Positions 2,231 through 19,958 of a stretch of DNA of 64,000 nucleotides are shown here, in pieces. The stretch lies in NCBI RefSeq assembly GCF_004803755.1, contig NZ_CP032311.1, positions 308,501-372,500 of the forward strand, written 5' to 3'. Source of the DNA: Pseudomonas sp. DG56-2 (GTDB lineage Bacteria; Pseudomonadota; Gammaproteobacteria; Pseudomonadales; Pseudomonadaceae). The notes below the pieces were generated by a model, which had not been told where the DNA came from, did not search any database, and saw only the letters and a program-made list of their open reading frames with translations. Numbering within the stretch: position 1 is the first letter of the stretch; each line of letters opens with the position of its first letter. A program made the position numbers and the translations under genes.

Positions 2231-2256
2231 AAAAACCCGCCAGAAGGCGGGTTTTT
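2231..2256 (-). terminator. Rho-independent terminator of tRNA-Thr
   Basis: AAAAACCCGCC and GGCGGGTTTTT form a perfect 11-bp stem with an AGAA loop. Read on the minus strand it lies about 45 bases past the 3' end of tRNA-Thr and ends in a U tract. The flanking A and T runs make it usable in both directions. Confidence 0.85.
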
Positions 2257-2299
2257 CGGGGGTTCCAGAGATTTTGAAAGCTTTCTATGGAACCTTGAA

Positions 2300-2375
<76 letters not shown>

Positions 2376-2386
2376 ACAGGGGCGTC

Positions 2387-2414
2387 ATTATAGCGATCGG
2401 TTTGCGTCTGTAAA
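2387..2414 (-). promoter_or_regulatory. Sigma-70 promoter of tRNA-Thr
   Basis: On the minus strand TTTACA (2414-2409) and a perfect TATAAT (2392-2387) are separated by 16 bases, ending 11 bases before the mature tRNA 5' end. The bases after the -10 box (GACGCCCCT) are G+C rich, like a stringently controlled discriminator. Confidence 0.8.
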
Positions 2415-2472
2415 CTACTTCTGCACGATTCTTTGAAATACTTGTTTCTAAAAGGTATTTCGGCCCGTTTTC

Positions 2473-2709
2473 CTACCAGCCACGGTGCAGTGAAGTGGCG
2501 TCTGGTTCGGCTTTGGTCGGGTCGAAAAGCATGGGTTTGTGGTCGTGGCAGCCACGCTTGTTGCAGTGCATGTAAGGCTGTGCCGGCAGGCCGTTGTCGC
2601 CCAGTACCTGCATCTTTGGCATTTCCCAGTCCGGGGTGTAGCTGGCGCTGCTGCAGCCGGTCAGGGCGAGGATGAAGGTGAGTAAGGCAAGGCTATGTAT
2701 TTTGTTCAC
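2473..2709 (-). CDS. Small predicted lipoprotein
   Basis: A 78-residue protein with an N-terminal lipoprotein signal peptide (MNKIHSLALLTFILALTGCSS) in which LTGC is the lipobox, so Cys19 would be lipidated. The mature part is about 60 residues and has two further cysteines (CNKRGC, followed by HDHKP) that could form a disulfide or bind metal. It follows a second small lipoprotein gene on the same strand with 23 bases between them, so the two may be cotranscribed. I do not recognise a characterised family. Confidence 0.7.
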   Translation of the reverse strand: MNKIHSLALLTFILALTGCSSASYTPDWEMPKMQVLGDNGLPAQPYMHCNKRGCHDHKPMLFDPTKAEPDATSLHRGW

Positions 2710-2732
2710 TGTAAATTCCGTTTTCTTCAGGT

Positions 2733-3113
2733 TTATTCTTTATTGAGGATGCGCTGGATGGTGCCGCCGCAGCTCTGGTAGCAGCTGTCGTAGTCGTTGC
2801 CGCAGCTGTAGCTTGAGCCGCTGCCGTACGGGTAGCTGGGGTAGTAGCAGCTTTTGCGGGCTTCTTTTTTGCTCTTGCCGTTCTGGCAGTGCTGGTAGCT
2901 TCTGAGGTTGGCCTGGTACAGGGCCTGGTCGCTGTTTTCCTGCAGGCGCGCCATTTGTTTGCAGTGGTTGCGTTCGGTGGCGCAGCTGTTGATGCAGTTC
3001 ATGCCCATCATGCTGGGTGGGGGCGAGTATCTATAGGTGTAACTAGGGCCGCAGCCGCCGAGCAGGGCGGCAGCCAGCAGCAGCGCAGGGCGCCACTTGG
3101 GTGAATTGCTCAC
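2733..3113 (-). CDS. Cysteine-rich predicted lipoprotein
   Basis: A 126-residue protein starting MSNSPKWRPALLLAAALLGGCGPS, with a signal peptide and lipobox LGGC (Cys21). The mature domain holds about nine cysteines in a regular pattern (MNCINSCATERNHC, HCQNG, SCYYP, SCGNDYDSCYQSCGG), suggesting several disulfides in the periplasm or outer membrane. It lies 23 bases upstream of the other small lipoprotein gene in transcription order and 18 bases after the HTH gene, so all may form one operon. Function unknown. Confidence 0.7.
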   Translation of the reverse strand: MSNSPKWRPALLLAAALLGGCGPSYTYRYSPPPSMMGMNCINSCATERNHCKQMARLQENSDQALYQANLRSYQHCQNGKSKKEARKSCYYPSYPYGSGSSYSCGNDYDSCYQSCGGTIQRILNKE

Positions 3114-12202: not shown

Positions 12203-13240
12203 TCAGGCAGGCTGTACCAGCTCGCCACGGTCTTCCTCGGCATGCACCCGCGCCGCACGCTCAACCAGCAGCGGATCAGGCTGGTGGGCCACGCGCAGGT
12301 CCTTGCCGGGATAGTCCAGCGAATGCAGGAAGTGGCGTATGCAGTTGATGCGCGCACGCTTCTTGTCGTCGGACTTGATGACCGTCCATGGCGCATCAGC
12401 GGTGTCGGTGTGGAAGAACATCGCTTCCTTGGCAGCGGTGTATTCGTCCCACTTGTCCAGCGACTTGATATCGATGGGCGACAGCTTCCAATGCTTGAGC
12501 GGGTCGTCACGACGCGAGATGAAGCGGCGCAGTTGCTCTTCGCGGTTTACCGAGAACCAGTACTTGAACAGCAGAATGCCGGAATTGCACAGCATGCGTT
12601 CCAGGTCGGGGGCCTGGCGCATGAACTCGAGGTATTGCAGCGGCGAGCAGAAGTCCATCACCCGCTCGACACCGGCGCGGTTGTACCAGGAGCGGTCGAA
12701 GAAGACCATTTCACCGGCGGTGGGCAAATGCTGGATGTAGCGCTGAAAGTACCACTGGCCCTTTTCCTGTTCGGAAGGCTTCTCCAGGGCAACGATACGT
12801 GCGCCGCGCGGGTTCAGGTGCTCCATGAAGCGTTTGATCGTGCCGCCTTTACCCGCTGCGTCCCGTCCTTCGAACAGTACGACGATACGCTGGCCGGTTT
12901 CCTTGGCCCAGCTCTGCACCTTGAGCAGTTCGATCTGCAAATCGTGCTTGGCCTTATCGTATTCTCCCCGGCGCATACGCGTGCGGTAGGGGTAACTGGC
13001 CGGTAGCTTCGCTGCGGTGCTGTCTTCGTTGGAGCCGCGTGGGGCGGACGCGACCTTGAGAGCGGCAGGTTGCTGGCTGATCGCGACGATTTCGCTTTCA
13101 GCGGCTGCTACGGCTGGTTTGCGGGTGGTGCGCGCGCGCCGTGGGCGTGGGGTTGCAGGCTTGGCCGGGGTGGGGCTGGTGTTGGCCGAAGTATCTGGGG
13201 TCGGCACGGGCAGAGGCAGGGCTGTGGATTCTTCGCTCAT
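12203..13240 (-). CDS. ppk2: Polyphosphate kinase 2
   Basis: A 345-residue class I PPK2 that transfers phosphate between polyphosphate and nucleotides, favouring GDP or ADP phosphorylation at the expense of polyphosphate. The first 80 residues are a low-complexity Pro/Thr/Ala/Arg-rich extension. The catalytic domain follows: Walker A FEGRDAAGKGGTIKR near residue 123, the lid and Walker B region FFDRSWYNRAGVERVMDF near 180, and SRRDDPLKHWKLSPID. It is the last core gene before the tRNA-Phe insertion. Confidence 0.93.
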   Translation of the reverse strand: MSEESTALPLPVPTPDTSANTSPTPAKPATPRPRRARTTRKPAVAAAESEIVAISQQPAALKVASAPRGSNEDSTAAKLPASYPYRTRMRRGEYDKAKHDLQIELLKVQSWAKETGQRIVVLFEGRDAAGKGGTIKRFMEHLNPRGARIVALEKPSEQEKGQWYFQRYIQHLPTAGEMVFFDRSWYNRAGVERVMDFCSPLQYLEFMRQAPDLERMLCNSGILLFKYWFSVNREEQLRRFISRRDDPLKHWKLSPIDIKSLDKWDEYTAAKEAMFFHTDTADAPWTVIKSDDKKRARINCIRHFLHSLDYPGKDLRVAHQPDPLLVERAARVHAEEDRGELVQPA

Positions 13241-13491
13241 GTAGGTGGGCCTGTTGGTTTTTTCGAATTTCCACCAAATAGCATACGAGGGTGCGGCGAG
13301 AAGGTACTGATGTTGGTCAAAAGCCTTGGGGGTTCTCGCCCAAACCTAAAGTTTCAGCCGCGTTGAAGCGACGAGTGCGCAACCCCGTTGTTCCATTGAG
13401 GGCTTAAGGTGTGCAGGCGGTATGCGCCGGTCGGCTTGTAGCTGCGGCGTGAGTTGGGCTAATCAGGAAAGGGGCGGGAATTTCAGGCAAT

Positions 13492-13519
13492 AAAAAACCC
13501 GCTCGAAGGCGGGTTTTTT
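13492..13519. terminator. Terminator, probably the original tRNA-Phe terminator
   Basis: AAAAAACCCGC and GCGGGTTTTTT form an 11-bp stem with a six-base loop. It lies 40 bases past the displaced 3' end of tRNA-Phe (13561) on the minus strand, where the native tRNA terminator would be before an insertion. The rest of 13241-13560 shows no gene. Confidence 0.8.
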
Positions 13520-13560
13520 ATGTGTTTCAGATGATGCTGACACCACCTGAAAGCGAAAGG

Positions 13561-13604
13561 TGGTACCCAGAGACGGAATCGAACCGCCGACACGGGATTT
13601 TCAA
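13561..13604 (-). repeat. Displaced copy of the tRNA-Phe 3' end (att-like repeat)
   Basis: Bases 13566-13596 are identical to 18460-18490, the 3' half of tRNA-Phe (31 bases including the whole T arm). The match continues with one missing G (ATTTTCAA, 13597-13604 with 18492-18499) and then stops. One mismatch lies on the acceptor side (A at 13565). The copy has the same orientation as the intact tRNA, as expected for the distal attachment site of an element integrated in the tRNA 3' end. Confidence 0.85.
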
Positions 13605-13812
13605 AACCTGTGAAAGTCCTTACCCGTTTGGCAAACGGCTGGTTTTCCTGGGCCTATCTCAAAGACGGGGCGGTAAACACCGGCCAGAAACGGGCCAGAT
13701 GGCTTGAAAGTGTTCCGTACGGTCCGGAGGAGCACCGGAGCGGGGTGAGCTGATTGCCGCTGCGTTTCCATGCACCGCGCGCACCGCGTGACTTTTGAGC
13801 CAGCAAGAAATG

Positions 13813-14811
13813 CTATTCCAGTTGGTAGTACAGGGCCTGAAAATTGGTGGTGAATTCTGGAATGAGCTCTTTGAGGCGGCTGTAAGGGTTCTCGTCAAAG
13901 AAAAAAATGATGACCTCGCTTTCTCTCACTCCCTTGTTTGAAAGCTTGCCAGGCTTTAAGTCGTAAGGCTTGCTGATGTTTGCTGCTAGCTTGCGCAGTG
14001 CTTGTAGGCGCCGTTTTTTGTGGGCAGCAATGTCAAGACCGTCCTTGGGGACAGCAGCGTACTGGTTGATGCGTAGGTAGGTTCTCCCGGAGCGGGAGTC
14101 AACTCTCCAAAACAACGTTTCGTTTTTTTCCTCGTAGTAGTTCTTTCGTTGGCAAAAATCTAGCTGAGTCCATGGGGAACCGTTTTTATTTACCCCTTTC
14201 TTGAATTTCAAACAAGCATCACTGCCCTTCAATTGCTCATAGAGTTCACCGATGAAGTGTCGTTGGCCTATGGCGCTTTTGAACGCGTCAGGACACGAAG
14301 CCGCTAGGTTTTTTAGGGCTTCTTCTTCCTTGGAAATCCAATTGTCCTTTAGAAAAGCGCAGTATTGATGAATGATTGGATGGAAGTTAGCTAAGAAGCT
14401 AACGGTATTATAAAAGTCATGGGCGGAGATGAGCTCATACTTCCCTAAGCTCTGTCGTTCCAATGTGTCGATATAGCCGATTTTGAAGTAAATATATTTG
14501 TAACAGTCGGGGAAGCGTTTTTGGTAAGTGTTAAGTTGATCTGAGTGAATGGTTGATGAAGTTTTATTCTCAAATAAAATATTGCGGCGCTCGTCGTTCA
14601 CGTCAAAGCTCAGCATTAAATCAACACTGCCGGACTGTAATTTTGAGTGAATGTTAACGGGCGTTTCGCCCTCTTTGGTGAACCCCAAAGCATTGAACAC
14701 ATGTGAGCGATATAGGCTGATGTCCGGATTTTCATCCAGTTCTTTGAAGAACCAAGCTAGGAAGGCATCTGTACTGAGTTCCTTGCTGGCATATTCGAAT
14801 AAATTGTTCAA
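13813..14811 (-). CDS. PD-(D/E)XK nuclease superfamily protein (PDDEXK_4-like)
   Basis: About 332 residues if read from the TTG at 14811, giving MNNLFEYASKELSTDAFLAW, a typical start of the PDDEXK_4 family; another TTG at 14841 adds ten residues, and neither has a clear ribosome-binding site. The nuclease core is visible as SVDLMLSF (Asp64), LFENKTSS (Glu81-x-Lys83) and SDQLNTYQKRF (Gln92 and Tyr96). It probably cuts DNA with a divalent metal. Substrate unknown. It is the gene nearest the distal att repeat and converges with no neighbour; the A+T-rich codon use sets it apart from core genes. Confidence 0.7.
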   Translation of the reverse strand: MNNLFEYASKELSTDAFLAWFFKELDENPDISLYRSHVFNALGFTKEGETPVNIHSKLQSGSVDLMLSFDVNDERRNILFENKTSSTIHSDQLNTYQKRFPDCYKYIYFKIGYIDTLERQSLGKYELISAHDFYNTVSFLANFHPIIHQYCAFLKDNWISKEEEALKNLAASCPDAFKSAIGQRHFIGELYEQLKGSDACLKFKKGVNKNGSPWTQLDFCQRKNYYEEKNETLFWRVDSRSGRTYLRINQYAAVPKDGLDIAAHKKRRLQALRKLAANISKPYDLKPGKLSNKGVRESEVIIFFFDENPYSRLKELIPEFTTNFQALYYQLE

Positions 14812-14936
14812 TGTCAGGGTCCATGCGCAATGGTACGTCAACGGTGAAGGCTAGGAAAGGAGCCAAGCCTCAGGAATGTGTAGTCAGCGATCGGATTATG
14901 AGTTTTGTACATAATGATCCGAGGGCACTTAATGCA

Positions 14937-15497
14937 CTATTTCTTTGTATACTGGTCTTTTACGGGGACCCAGCGGAGATTAGGGAATATTTCTTCCAGA
15001 ATTGTTGTAAGCGAATCGAAAGTGGTCACTGAGTGTTCGACGCCTGTAGCACAATAAGCCGTGAAGCGGTGGCAGTTGTTGAAAATTAAATTGTATCCGC
15101 TTTTATTGCCCACTGCGGCACTAGCTCTATCAGAGATTTCCGGGCTGCTAATTATTTTTCCATTGGAATAGGCGGCATAAAGGGTTATGCCCGTTCGAAG
15201 TCCATGGGAGTTCATAAAGGCGTGTGGAGTGACTTTTTTAATTTTTCCGTCACCGTTTCGCTCTACAATTCGATTATTTTGTCCAATATATATTCCCGTG
15301 TGATCTGCAAAGCTTCCCGCAAGGTCACAGACGACTATGCAGCCCGGTACAAGATCGGCCTCTTTGCCCAAGCCTGCACAGATGAATGTTTTTGCAAGGC
15401 TTCGCTCCGTTCGCTTTGTTGAAGTAAATTTGAATGTTGGATTAATAGTGGTGCGGATGCTTGGAACTAATAAGGTTTTAAAAATTTTTCCCAGCAT
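14937..15497 (-). CDS. LRAT/NlpC-P60-like papain-fold protein
   Basis: A 186-residue protein whose core resembles the lecithin:retinol acyltransferase (LRAT) branch of the NlpC/P60 superfamily. His66 lies in DHTGIYIG and the candidate catalytic Cys142 in NNCHRFTAYCATG, the circularly permuted His-then-Cys order of that branch. An aspartate-rich stretch PGCIVVCDLAG precedes the His motif. Such enzymes act as acyltransferases, thioesterases or amidases on lipids or modified proteins. No signal peptide is evident. Start at 15497 with AGGG upstream. It lies between the nuclease and the ATPase genes of the island. Function there is unknown. Confidence 0.65.
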   Translation of the reverse strand: MLGKIFKTLLVPSIRTTINPTFKFTSTKRTERSLAKTFICAGLGKEADLVPGCIVVCDLAGSFADHTGIYIGQNNRIVERNGDGKIKKVTPHAFMNSHGLRTGITLYAAYSNGKIISSPEISDRASAAVGNKSGYNLIFNNCHRFTAYCATGVEHSVTTFDSLTTILEEIFPNLRWVPVKDQYTKK

Positions 15498-16233
15498 TTT
15501 CTGTCCCTAAAAAGCTGTGATCGATATGTACTCTATGGCGAAGCTTATGGCACCGATAATCATGCTGCCATCATTATGATATCGCAAGATCTATCGTTCT
15601 TTTGGGCAGTTTTAGGGGCATCTCACTTCTCTTTCTCTCCGCTGAGTCTCTTCTGGCTTATGGAGGCTACCTTGCTACAGGAGAAAGGTACGCTGGTCAC
15701 CAGATGCCAGCGCGACCAGTCCATGCTGACTACGGATCTTTAGATCAGTCTCACTGGAGTATTGGGGGCCATATGTATCTTTAGCTACCGTTGTCGTCTT
15801 TAAGGCAGGTCAATAAAACGGTCTGCAATGGAAAAAATAATATAACGGTGGCAATTCAATGTAAGAGGCTTTTAAAGCCTGTAAGCAATAAAGCTGATCA
15901 GGAGGCATTTGCAGGCATGCAGTTCGTAAAAGGTAATTTTCCGTAGTCGTCACAAATTCAAGTTACACACCAGGAGCTTGAGAGATCACGAGAGAAGCTG
16001 GCACACATTTTTGTTTAATGATAACGATCTCCCTCAGCTTGGGTCACTAACTAAGCAGAGGTGTACACTTTACTGAAAAATTTCCTACACCGCTAAGCCA
16101 CAGTCCGCTTTTGGCTGCTTTCTGCCTGTGGTGAGAGGCAGAAAACGACCAGAAGCGGTCATCGTCGAGAGCAGTCTCCGATCGCGGCTTCTAGCGTCTG
16201 CCCCAGGGTGACAGAGTCAGGTTAACCGGCAGG
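15498..16233. other. Gene-poor stretch inside the island
   Basis: No ORF here shows a believable protein or ribosome-binding site; a 60-codon reading frame at 15602-15784 looks random. The stretch is A+T rich in its first half. The second half holds the nested palindrome listed separately. The promoter for the LRAT-like gene should lie just above 15497. Confidence 0.4.
16105..16158. repeat. Nested palindromic element
   Basis: CCGCTTTTGG (16105-16114) pairs with CCAGAAGCGG (16149-16158) with one G-U pair, and inside it TTTCTGCCT (16119-16127) pairs perfectly with AGGCAGAAA (16136-16144). A related but decayed sequence containing CCAAAAACGA and AAGGCAGGTTTTGGTCG lies at 17942-17980. I recall this type of sequence as dispersed in Pseudomonas genomes; it may be a short repetitive element or serve as terminator of the ATPase gene. 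Confidence 0.5.
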
Positions 16234-17844
16234 TCAGTAGGGTAGTGCTATTTCCGGCAGTACGTCTCGCAAAGCTTTGACGAGTCCGGGCACCTTATTA
16301 TTAAGAAGCACTCTTGCCAGCCACGCTTCAAACGGGGCGCGGCTAGTGTTTTTTAAGCGACTGGAAGCTTTAGCCAGCATTCCTTTATTATCGAATAAAG
16401 ACAGGAGAGTTGGGATATCACCTTGAGCGATTGCGGTCTCAATTCTGGTTCGACGCTCTTTGGCAATTGCTGTGATATCTATGCTTTGAGTCTGCAGGAT
16501 GTAGGCGTTTTTCATCCCTTCGATCGAATCTTGCTTGCTGAGATCAGTTTTCTTGAGTGCGCGATCAATACGCCGCATACAGTACATCCGCACAACCCGA
16601 TCAGTTAGATCAGACTGGCCTGCCAGAGTTAGAATGTCATCCTTAAGCCCGTCAAGGCGCACTTCAATTTCTTCAGGGGCTAGGTGCTCGGCGTTTGCGA
16701 TTTCCCGACTGATTTCGGGGAGCAAAAACAGATTTTCAATTTCTGATACCGGTAAAACGGCCACACCCATTTGTTCGAAGGCATCGATGTCCGTGGTGTC
16801 GTAGCCATCGGCATCAATAATCCCTGCGCATTGGACGCGTGTGAGCTCGGTGTTAGCTCTCAACGTTGTTACAGCGTGTACAACTTCTTGACACGAGCCG
16901 CGTGGCACAACAGTCCATTGAGGGTAAGCGCATCGATAAACTGCTTTATCAAGACTCTTGGCATCGCCTTCAACGAAAAGAATTGGCCGACGGCTACCGA
17001 GAAGTAAGGTGGTGATTTCTTCAGTGAAACCGGTGTCGGTGGGCACCGTATCGATGGTCCAGCGTGGTCCTACGGAATTATAGTCGCGGATCACAAATTT
17101 TTGACCTACTCGGCCAGCAGCGAACTCTAGGTCATGTGTGATAAACACAAAGGCGCAGTCGGGGCGGGCGCTTTCAAGATGATCCCATAGCTTGTTCATG
17201 ATCGAACGGTGAACATGCAATTCAGGCTCATCTACGATGAGCACGGAATTTTCCGCTGCAACCAAAACTTGGCCAATTAAGTAGAAAATTGCCCGCTCTC
17301 CGTCACTCATGTCGGTTGCGCTGTACGTAGCCCCAGTAGTAGGTGATATCACTTGAATATCATCACCACTGATTTCGAGAACGCGGTGCGGTAACAAGAG
17401 CTGCCAAATTTTCTGAAGTTTCTCGAATTTCGTATCGTTAGCCGCCAGGTTCTTTCCGTCCCGTACACTCTTATGAGTTTCGAGGGAGGTTCGCGACTGT
17501 TCGGCAAACATCGCCTGGAGTACATAGTCGAAATCGTTCAGTAGCGCGCTGGCTTCTTTCGATTGCCAGCGAGACCCCGTGCGATGGTATAAGGCTGCAC
17601 TCTCGTCTGGATGACCGAACCTCAATCCCGCTAACGCTTGCCTTTCACGGATTTTCGGAACGCCAGGATTCAGTGTGAGTGCGCGATGTGCCGAAATTCG
17701 ATGGGCGCTTTCCCCTCCAAATGCTTCTATATGAATTGCGAGTCGAGTCTTGCCACTCCCATTAGCTCCTACAAAGACAACAGATGTTCCTTGCACTACA
17801 TCAATTTCGATGGGATCGCCATTCGTTGGAACTGTAAATTGCAT
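16234..17844 (-). CDS. ABC-type ATPase fused to DUF4435 TOPRIM domain (PARIS/OLD-like defence protein)
   Basis: A 536-residue two-domain protein. Residues 1-260 are a compact AAA_21-type ABC ATPase: Walker A GANGSGKT (26-33), signature-like DMSDGER (178-184), Walker B VLIVDEPE (201-208) and H-loop THD (236-238), without a long coiled-coil insert. Residues 285-400 form a DUF4435 TOPRIM-like domain with Glu292 in FVEGD and Asp344/Asp346 in IIDADG, the metal-binding acidic residues. This order matches OLD-family nucleases and, more closely, the ATPase (AriA) and DUF4435 nuclease (AriB) of the PARIS phage-defence system joined in one chain. It likely senses phage proteins and triggers TOPRIM cleavage, but that is inference. 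It is the gene closest to tRNA-Phe. Confidence 0.75.
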   Translation of the reverse strand: MQFTVPTNGDPIEIDVVQGTSVVFVGANGSGKTRLAIHIEAFGGESAHRISAHRALTLNPGVPKIRERQALAGLRFGHPDESAALYHRTGSRWQSKEASALLNDFDYVLQAMFAEQSRTSLETHKSVRDGKNLAANDTKFEKLQKIWQLLLPHRVLEISGDDIQVISPTTGATYSATDMSDGERAIFYLIGQVLVAAENSVLIVDEPELHVHRSIMNKLWDHLESARPDCAFVFITHDLEFAAGRVGQKFVIRDYNSVGPRWTIDTVPTDTGFTEEITTLLLGSRRPILFVEGDAKSLDKAVYRCAYPQWTVVPRGSCQEVVHAVTTLRANTELTRVQCAGIIDADGYDTTDIDAFEQMGVAVLPVSEIENLFLLPEISREIANAEHLAPEEIEVRLDGLKDDILTLAGQSDLTDRVVRMYCMRRIDRALKKTDLSKQDSIEGMKNAYILQTQSIDITAIAKERRTRIETAIAQGDIPTLLSLFDNKGMLAKASSRLKNTSRAPFEAWLARVLLNNKVPGLVKALRDVLPEIALPY

Positions 17845-18454
17845 GGTATTTGCCGAAGAGAGTTAATGACTAGTTAACAGGGTGCCTGATTCAGGATGGG
17901 GCTGTCATCTCCTGAGGCGGATTCCAGCAAGAGGTATTTAGGCCAAAAACGATCGCTCCTGAAAGGCAGGTTTTGGTCGATCTCTGCCGGTCAGGGCCAC
18001 GAAGGGTAATGGTCAAAGTCTATGCATATGACTAATCAGTCGAATGCAAATGGGTGGGCAAGTCGGTGCATTTCCCCGGTTGCATCGGAAGTCCAGTATT
18101 TTGTCCTGATGTTCGACTCCAGGGGCTGGTTTATGCGTGCCGCGCATGCAGCGTGACTTGTAAGTGTCTGGAGTGAAGGGCGGTCGAGAGTGCTCAGAGG
18201 CCCTGTGGTGTGCCAGGGGAAGCGGAAGGGCTATGCTGGGCGGGCCTGTATTGCCGACGTCTCAGCTTGTCTGAGGGAGGCTCTCAAGCTGACAATTCAA
18301 ATTAGATTAAAACTACCCAGTTTTGGGGTCGGTACCGAAAGTCCGTTGGACTCCTTTCAATCACGCTGCCGAAGCGCCATGGTCCAGCTGCCATTAAATC
18401 GCAGGCAATAAAAAACCCCAAGGACACATTGTTCCTTGGGGTTTCTCGGTATTT
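17845..18454. other. Intergenic stretch between island ATPase gene and tRNA-Phe
   Basis: About 610 bases with no convincing gene. It contains the decayed repeat at 17942-17980, and the tRNA terminator at its right end. Codon bias and reading frames give no sign of an intact integrase here. The promoter of the ATPase gene should lie above 17844. Confidence 0.4.
18413..18444 (-). terminator. Terminator of tRNA-Phe
   Basis: AAACCCCAAGGA and TCCTTGGGGTTT form a 12-bp stem with an eight-base loop, 11 bases beyond the tRNA 3' end on the minus strand and followed by a U-rich tract. Confidence 0.9.
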
Positions 18455-18530
18455 TGGTGCCCAGAGACGGAATCGAACCGCCGACACGGGGATTTTCAAT
18501 CCCCTGCTCTACCGACTGAGCTATCTGGGC
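18455..18530 (-). tRNA. tRNA-Phe (anticodon GAA), CCA encoded
   Basis: The reverse complement is a full 76-nt tRNA: acceptor GCCCAGA/TCTGGGC, D arm TAGCTCAGTCGGTAGAGCA, anticodon arm GGGGATTGAAAATCCCC with GAA, and T arm GGCGGTTCGATTCCGTC. The 3' CCA is encoded. Its 3' half is duplicated at 13561-13604, marking it as an integration site. Confidence 0.97.
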
Positions 18531-18540
18531 AACGGGGCGC

Positions 18541-18569
18541 ATTAAAAGGCTTTTTCAGGTTTAGGTCAA
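18541..18569 (-). promoter_or_regulatory. Sigma-70 promoter of tRNA-Phe
   Basis: On the minus strand TTGACC (18569-18564) and TTTAAT (18546-18541) are separated by 17 bases and followed by the G+C-rich discriminator GCGCCCC just before the tRNA, as in stringently controlled stable RNA promoters. Confidence 0.8.
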
Positions 18570-18621
18570 ACACTTTTTGAAAATTTTTTAAATTAATTCC
18601 GTCGCTTACGGTTTTTGGGGG

Positions 18622-18894
18622 TTATTCGGCAGGTGGAACGTAGCCTTCGGCCTTTTCGTATTCCTGGCCGGAGAAAAACTTGTCCATCTCGCCCTGGAGG
18701 AATTTGCGGTCCTCGGCGTTCATCATGTTCAGGCGCTTCTCGTTGATCAGCATGGTCTGTTCCTTCTGCCAATCGGCCCAGGCCTTCTGCGAGATATGCT
18801 CGTAGATGTCCTGACCCTTGGCGCCCGGGTACGGTGGACGCTCCAGGCCTGGAAGTTCTTCGTTGTATTTGCGGCACATTACGGTGCGGGTCAT
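18622..18894 (-). CDS. yggX: Fe(2+)-trafficking protein YggX
   Basis: A 90-residue member of the YggX family: [20 protein letters not shown] with the conserved Cys7, then [20 protein letters not shown] and [10 protein letters not shown]. YggX protects iron-sulfur clusters from oxidative damage. The ATG at 18894 overlaps the mutY stop by one base (TGATG) and has GGAGA upstream, so the two are translationally coupled. The mutY-yggX pairing is common in gammaproteobacteria and makes sense because MutY carries a 4Fe-4S cluster. Confidence 0.95.
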
Positions 18895-19958
18895 CACGAC
18901 TCTCCTGCAATCAAAACATCGGCCGCGCGTTTGAGCAGCTTTTTGACCGGGGCAGCAAGGCCCAGGCGCGGCGGGGTGGCGAGGTTATACCAGAGCCAGT
19001 CGGGCTCGACCATGTCGGCCCGGGAGTCATCGACCCGGACCAGCCAGGGTTCGATGGCCAACTGGAAATGGCTGAAGGTGTGAGTCAGGCCGTCCAGCGC
19101 CTGGCGAGTGACAAGGGTAAGGCCATGCTGATCGGCTAGGTCGTCGAGCTGTTCCAACTGCTCCAGCTCCGGCAAGCTCCACAAGCCACCCCATAGCCCC
19201 GTAGAGGGACGACGATAAAGCAGGATGGCACCTTGGCCGTTTGCCAGTAGCGGCATTAGCGTGCGGCGCTGTGGTAGCTCCTTGCGGGGTTTGGGGATCG
19301 GGTAGCGAATCTCCTGACCCAACAAGTGTGCTTCGCAGCCAACCTTGAGAGGGCACAGCAGGCAACTGGGCTTGCTGCGGGTGCACAGGGTGGCGCCCAG
19401 GTCCATCATCGCCTGGGTGTAGTTGTTGACTCTGGCGTGCGGGGTATAGCGTTCGGCATTGGCCCACAGCACTTTGGCCACCTTGGGTTCGCCCGGGTAG
19501 CCTTCCTGGGCGGTGTAGCGGGCCAGCACGCGTTTAACGTTGCCGTCGAGGATCGGCGCACGCAGGCCCATGCTGATACTGGCAATGGCCCCGGCTGTGG
19601 ATAAGCCGATGCCAGGCAGGTCGGTGAGCTTTTCGACATCGCGCGGAAATTCGCCGCCGTAGTGTTCGACGACGATTTTCGCGGTCTTCTGCAGGTTGCG
19701 CGCCCGGGTGTAATAGCCCAGGCCCGTCCACAGGTGCAGCACTTCATCTTCCGGCGCTGCGGCCAGTGCCTCTACGGTCGGCAACGCTTGCATAAAGCGA
19801 TCGAAGTAGTTGAGCACGGTGCTGACCTGGGTCTGCTGCAGCATGATCTCCGAAACCCACACCCGATAAGGGGTGATCCCCTGTTGCCAGGGCAGGTCAT
19901 GACGGCCATTACGGTCGTACCACTCCAGCACAGCGCTGGAAAACTGCTCGGGGCTCAT
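18894..19958 (-). CDS. mutY: Adenine DNA glycosylase MutY
   Basis: A 354-residue A/G-specific adenine glycosylase that removes adenine mispaired with 8-oxoguanine. The helix-hairpin-helix and catalytic region ([36 protein letters not shown]) is in the first 140 residues, followed by the iron-sulfur motif C-x6-C-x2-C-x5-C in [17 protein letters not shown]. The C-terminal NUDT1-like domain ([27 protein letters not shown]) recognises oxoG. It overlaps the upstream AsmA-family gene by four bases and yggX by one, forming a tight three-gene operon. Confidence 0.97.

Follow-up and report, generated by a model that had tools for sequence, protein, structure and literature searches.

In two-gene PARIS, a hexamer of the ATPase AriA holds up to three copies of the nuclease AriB; binding of a trigger frees AriB, which then dimerises (PMC11455837). 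AriB is described as a ribonuclease of the two-metal type, with products ending in 3'-OH and 5'-phosphate, and its cleavage is abolished by E26A (PMC12409363). In a published OLD-family tree (PMC12796447), two-gene PARIS is class 4 and falls within class 3, next to the OLD proteins of retrons. A joined form is also known: Rousset et al. 2022 modelled AAA_21+DUF4435 fusions and reported ariAB "as a single-gene fusion" (PMC9122126), PADLOC has an AriAB model (PDLC02982), and a review does not decide if fused PARIS constitutes a separate class (PMC10568477). In the literature searched, we found no experimental test of fused PARIS, though defence-finding models detect it. Here we describe a gene of this joined kind in Pseudomonas sp. 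DG56-2, located in a 64,000-nucleotide stretch of contig NZ_CP032311.1 (positions 308,501 to 372,500; the whole stretch is called the window). The joined forms themselves are already known; what this analysis adds is that the compact fused type forms a branch of its own, both in a tree of ATPase parts and in one of nuclease parts.

One chain with both PARIS-like domains

The gene and the landmarks of its product are as follows.

16234..17844, minus strand: single-chain AriAB-type gene, open reading frame of 536 residues with a PADLOC AriAB match; stop codon at 16234-16236
17047..17844, minus strand: ABC ATPase (AriA-like) part, residues 1-266
17746..17769, minus strand: Walker A GANGSGKT, residues 26-33, read from the sequence
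17296..17307, minus strand: ABC signature SDGE, residues 180-183
17221..17244, minus strand: Walker B VLIVDEPE, residues 201-208
17134..17136, minus strand: switch histidine H237
16237..17037, minus strand: DUF4435/TOPRIM (AriB-like) part and helical C-terminus, residues 270-536
16969..16971, minus strand: catalytic-type Glu292, matching AriB E26 in alignments
16813..16815, minus strand: Asp344 of the TOPRIM DxD, from alignments
16807..16809, minus strand: Asp346 of the TOPRIM DxD, from alignments
16735..16737, minus strand: Glu370, a fourth conserved carboxylate, aligning with E108 of a two-gene AriB (L034)

The frame starts with ATG and runs through 536 codons. The PADLOC AriAB model matches the protein with E=4.1e-142 over profile positions 28-567 of 570. 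Among Pfam models, AAA_21 scores 46.6 bits (cut-off 27) and DUF4435 a marginal 27.4 bits (cut-off 27), and AAA_15, at 29.6 bits, falls below its cut-off of 32.1; none of the 25 NCBIfam models listed, of 53, is above cut-off. The sequence-only reading of this DNA had looked to these Pfam profiles and to defence-system models for confirmation, which AAA_21, DUF4435 and AriAB supplied. An AAA_21 ATPase and a DUF4435 domain in the same protein, a full-length match to the fused model, and intact motifs and carboxylates are the features by which fused PARIS is recognised, and on this sequence evidence the window protein is an intact member of fused PARIS, an already known kind. It shares whole length, domain order and compact size with PDLC02982, and nothing sets it apart from that PADLOC model, on which the likeness rests, the fusion model of Rousset et al. 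2022 itself being outside the comparison. The PARIS-like fused system that the sequence-only reading had proposed therefore stands in its substance (an AriAB match, a single gene and a mobile-looking islet) and not in its novelty, the fusion having been described in 2022; likewise, its statement that PARIS consists of two proteins holds for the two-gene form and passes over the single-gene fusions in PMC9122126 and PADLOC.

Other explanations of the frame were rejected: a chance open reading frame is excluded by the profile match and by conservation across 66 aligned rows, and half of a split system by the presence of both halves within a single frame. Over 13000-19000, tRNA-Phe is the sole Rfam match above the gathering score, so a regulatory RNA reading was set aside, and promoter and terminator scans gave nothing better than shuffles.

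All 66 aligned rows keep G26, N28, G29, G31 and K32 of Walker A, S180, G182 and E183 of the signature, D205, E206, P207 and E208 of Walker B, and T236 and H237; the motifs lie at the residues where they had first been read. E292, D344 and D346, which the sequence-only reading had named in a TOPRIM-like domain, are also invariant in 66/66 rows. That reading missed E370, which is nearly invariant (at least 90%) across the same alignment, and G283, E292, D344, D346 and E370 are all invariant in 27/27 C-terminal parts, mostly from distant members. Among 12 two-gene AriB, four acidic residues are invariant (E27, D83, D85 and E108 in L034 numbering), and a profile comparison of two-gene AriB with the fused family lands these four acids on E292, D344, D346 and E370 (96.2% probability, E 2.5e-9).

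In the predicted structure the two halves have AriA-like and AriB-like folds, AriA being among the tied best matches of the first half and AriB the best match of the second. This bears on a reading in which the TOPRIM domain, gated by ATP binding, would nick or cut DNA instead of RNA, as in the OLD family and Gabija GajA. These proteins join an ATPase and a TOPRIM domain in a single chain in the same order as the window protein, and are its first structural match in Foldseek, but a weaker one than AriB in VIA-align, where 220 C-terminal residues align with AriB versus 155-159 with OLD. The window protein matches DUF4435 and AriAB and has no OLD TOPRIM Pfam model listed at E<=1. We regard DNA cutting of this kind as unlikely. 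Run as a profile against the PDB, the C-terminal alignment returned a single unrelated match (E 1.3).

Two further ATPase systems were compared. IbfA of plasmids R64/pUA1135, a 518-aa ATPase-TOPRIM chain, reduced burst size and cut phage plating to 0.05 when cloned alone (PMC12111858), and the window protein shares the single-chain build of IbfA/HEC-04. However, R64 IbfA matches the HEC-04 model (9.1e-42) without a DUF4435 match, BLASTP against the window protein gives one significant stretch of 69 ATPase residues, and alignment of IbfA to the window protein or to other AriAB members is confined to the ATPase part; HEC-04 is not among the 25 PADLOC models listed, of 65, for the window protein. 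We therefore rejected IbfA as a characterised member of the AriAB family; its bearing here is limited to showing that one chain of such build can defend alone. The PtuA ATPases of retrons and Septu work with a nuclease encoded apart, the HNH protein PtuB (PMC12409363).

A branch of compact chains

The single open reading frame differs from E. coli AriA and AriB (PDB 8ux9, 8v45-8v49) in more than its joining. The ATPase part is compact and without a long coiled coil, as the sequence-only reading had noticed: its longest helix has 24 residues in the AlphaFold2 model, and 154 residues separate Walker A from the signature, versus 220-365 in 12/12 two-gene AriA. To place such chains, 33 fused proteins were cut before the catalytic Glu, and separate ATPase and nuclease trees were built with 12 AriA and 21 AriB (45 and 54 rows, respectively; a partner AriA was found for only 12 two-gene cases). 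In the ATPase tree, 29 fused proteins lie on one side of a branch with bootstrap/SH-aLRT support of 100/100, recovered in 100% of 200 bootstrap trees. The identical 29 form one branch of the nuclease tree (100/97; 99% of bootstrap trees), and in both trees this branch lies apart from every sampled two-gene PARIS. Because the same 29 proteins group in both, the halves of the chain have moved as a unit through this lineage. The trees are unrooted and fit either origin, the two-gene form by splitting or the fused form by fusing, and several two-gene rows sit on long branches whose placement the tree program flags as unsure.

The branch is also well marked in sequence. Walker A and the signature are 141-161 residues apart in 29/29 members, with no overlap with the AriA range, so that the AriA insertion is missing. 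The second signature letter is acidic in 29/29 (SDGE in 27, SEGE in 2) and in 0/12 AriA, and the catalytic Glu lies 86-96 residues from Walker B in 29/29. These marks and the two trees indicate that the compact fused proteins are a branch of their own, and the absent insertion, acidic signature residue, near-fixed spacing and separate placement together give testable predictions. The branch comprises 26 compact proteins and three (L024, L027 and L069) with long N-terminal extensions. In these three, Walker A is found only at residues 160, 184 and 135, respectively, with extensions of about 105-155 residues in place of the AriA insertion. Four further proteins (L030, L032, L059 and L060) are single chains too, yet are placed among two-gene rows.

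Several loci were dropped before the trees were made: L065, L068, L073, L074 and L075 as second copies of loci already included (with L074 removed, genome G914 is absent from the trees), L033, L058 and L061 as fragments or lacking a usable frame, and L052 because the pattern missed its catalytic Glu. L005-L016 and L076-L083, which match the ATPase core only, and five further matches without a locus were left out; L001 and L031 both represent the window gene itself.

Proposed target and switch of the compact chain

Defence by E. coli AriB requires K60 and K64, two residues predicted to grip the tRNA anticodon loop (PMC12409363). They sit between E26 and the DxD-like pair, all numbers being counted along the E. 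coli chain. The E-to-D spacing is 62 residues in E. coli AriB versus 52 in the window protein (loop VPRGSC), in which the K60/K64 loop is not present. Exactly 52 residues are found in 24/29 core fused rows, a rough figure, as are all those for the E-to-D split, since the spacing pattern misplaces some rows (e.g. L024, L034, L036, L044, L054, L055 and L062). We considered the loop as a general mark of PARIS and rejected it, several sampled two-gene AriB being equally short. Because these lack the extra length, the loop marks the E. coli kind only, and the target of PARIS nucleases generally is not to be inferred from E. coli.

We propose that the window gene encodes a compact single-chain relative of PARIS. 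The ABC ATPase would keep the TOPRIM domain fused to it, which is predicted to be a nuclease, in an inactive state; once a phage protein is sensed, two TOPRIM domains would be brought together, and the pair would abort the infection by cleaving RNA, probably tRNA. We consider this proposal to have an even chance of being right. It is likely that the gene on its own would shut down the infected cell by cutting RNA. We infer that the chain forms oligomers, switches in cis in an ATP-dependent manner without nuclease release, pairs its TOPRIM domains, targets RNA, arrests growth and has a phage trigger.

The published switch hardly applies unchanged to such a chain, given the missing AriA insertion, the nearly fixed spacing and the short K60/K64 loop region; with the nuclease tied at a short and nearly fixed distance, release as in two-gene PARIS is hardly possible. 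A switch within the chain, or a rearrangement inside the oligomer, is likely to take its place. If a fixed chain can be switched without its nuclease being released, the release-and-dimerise model would need a second mode.

The exact two-gene mode would instead have an AriA-like hexamer sense anti-restriction proteins (e.g. Ocr), and the nuclease swing free on its linker, dimerise and cut tRNA-Lys(UUU). Both folds are alike in the two forms. Additionally, an HsdM-type N6 methylase is encoded in the host genome (a single PF02384 match, E 1e-55), with which anti-restriction triggers could make sense; the same family occurs in 13/14 control genomes. Against this mode, the AriA insertion and the K60/K64 loop are missing, the spacing from Walker B to the nuclease Glu leaves little room for release, and the proteins keep to their own branch in both trees. 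We therefore hold it to be decidedly improbable. A further proposal goes beyond our own: compact AriAB may be a separate class of defence ATPase-nuclease and not a joining of the two PARIS genes. It would be a single ancient lineage in which the AriA insertion was never present; one polypeptide would sense infection, switch in cis with its nuclease kept at a fixed distance from the ATPase, and cut an RNA other than tRNA-Lys(UUU). We advance this tentatively, as somewhat doubtful.

Islet, plasmids and relatives

The gene lies in an islet bounded by two features.

18455..18530, minus strand: tRNA-Phe(GAA), the likely integration site (Rfam tRNA, 70.9 bits)
13561..13608, plus strand: imperfect 48-bp repeat of the end of tRNA-Phe, marking the far islet boundary, 88% identical to 18455-18502

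The tRNA-Phe end and its copy are 4894 bp apart (4.9 kb). The surrounding DNA is lower in G+C: third-position GC is 0.475 in the AriAB gene versus 0.735-0.767 in five flanking genes (mutY, asmA, ppk2, permease and yggX). The tRNA-Phe gene and adjoining gene DNA are matched in 59/59 genomes of the genus, the own genome included. In 2 of 12 loci taken from the tRNA-Phe search (G056 and G009), ppk2 lies within the 1.5-kb flank, starting about 0.6 and 0.9 kb from tRNA-Phe versus about 5.2 kb in the window, so that both loci look unoccupied. In G008, G029 and G036, incomplete copies of tRNA-Phe lie 12-17 kb off, which suggests that further islands use this tRNA gene.

A reading of the gene as a dead remnant, left in an islet that is decaying, might draw on the imperfect tRNA copy and on the integrase domains, of which 19 matches occur in the genome and none inside the islet. 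Nevertheless, the frame is full-length and without stops, and the invariant residues are retained, which makes a remnant very improbable.

Relatives of the protein are widespread. In a protein database, 2985 clusters match at E<=1e-10 among 7997 candidates scored, and most of the best 120 matches are 530-560 residues long. The nearest relative, in Pseudomonas sp. JM0905a (L019), is of equal length and 78% identical. Full- or near-full-length relatives occur in 12/298 genomes of the genus (E<1e-45). The plain count with the AriAB model (194/298 at E<=0.001) was rejected, the best match beyond the 12 being 2.8e-9; the listed weak matches cover about 65-130 ATPase positions.

We viewed 13 loci, namely the window, 11 regions from its genus and L019, scanning neighbours picked by eye. 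L019, L101 and L103 have integrases nearby, and L106 has a tRNA and a prophage tail gene; the window has its tRNA-Phe copy, and L099 has defence-like neighbours. At the other seven loci, the neighbours scanned gave no sign of mobility. The L019 island carries, beside AriAB, a NACHT ATPase and a putative methyl-directed restriction enzyme (2e-10; L019:4789-7884 and L019:9514-10644). In L021, a 274-aa gene (2253-3077) overlaps the end of the fused AriAB gene by 4 bases and matches the PADLOC candidate PDC-S13 at 7.6e-119; it is possibly an accessory in that lineage.

Among plasmids, 55 records match, 46 of them with at least 80% coverage, including pPspP11G5f (5.8 kb). In the annotation of two small plasmids, AriAB is the longest gene and a single one, beside replication/mobilisation, toxin-antitoxin and unnamed genes. 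This occurrence and the separate branch fit the suggestion of the sequence-only reading that the chain is a distinct minimal form able to act alone, a prediction that we would call plausible and partly backed. The same neighbours could point to maintenance of the plasmid or islet, or exclusion of other mobile DNA, instead of phage defence. Chromosomal copies in differing surroundings and defence-like neighbours at L019, L099 and L021 speak against such a role, to which we give a slim chance. The E. coli/Salmonella plasmids with a distant AriAB gene (among H67-H91) are mostly 5.3-6.5 kb, two being about 10.7-10.9 kb, and the copies on 5-6 kb E. coli plasmids provide a natural test gene for a laboratory host. 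One such protein, L018, comes from an E. coli plasmid of 6.4 kb; it gives E=4.4e-43 with the AriAB model and lies inside the core branch of the trees, and a ToxN/AbiQ toxin gene shares this plasmid. In phages, 2 of 50,697 records match, both being one Oenococcus phage under two accessions (68% covered).

The other open reading frames found in the islet encode PD-(D/E)XK_4-like and LRAT-domain proteins, about 740 bp or more downstream of AriAB. The first (13813-14841, minus strand; 342 aa) has a weak PD-(D/E)XK_4 match below cut-off (17.8 bits) and matches the PADLOC candidate PDC-S26 at 9.7e-5, and is possibly a second defence gene. The second (14937-15497, minus strand; 186 aa) has an LRAT domain above the Pfam cut-off (31.1 bits).
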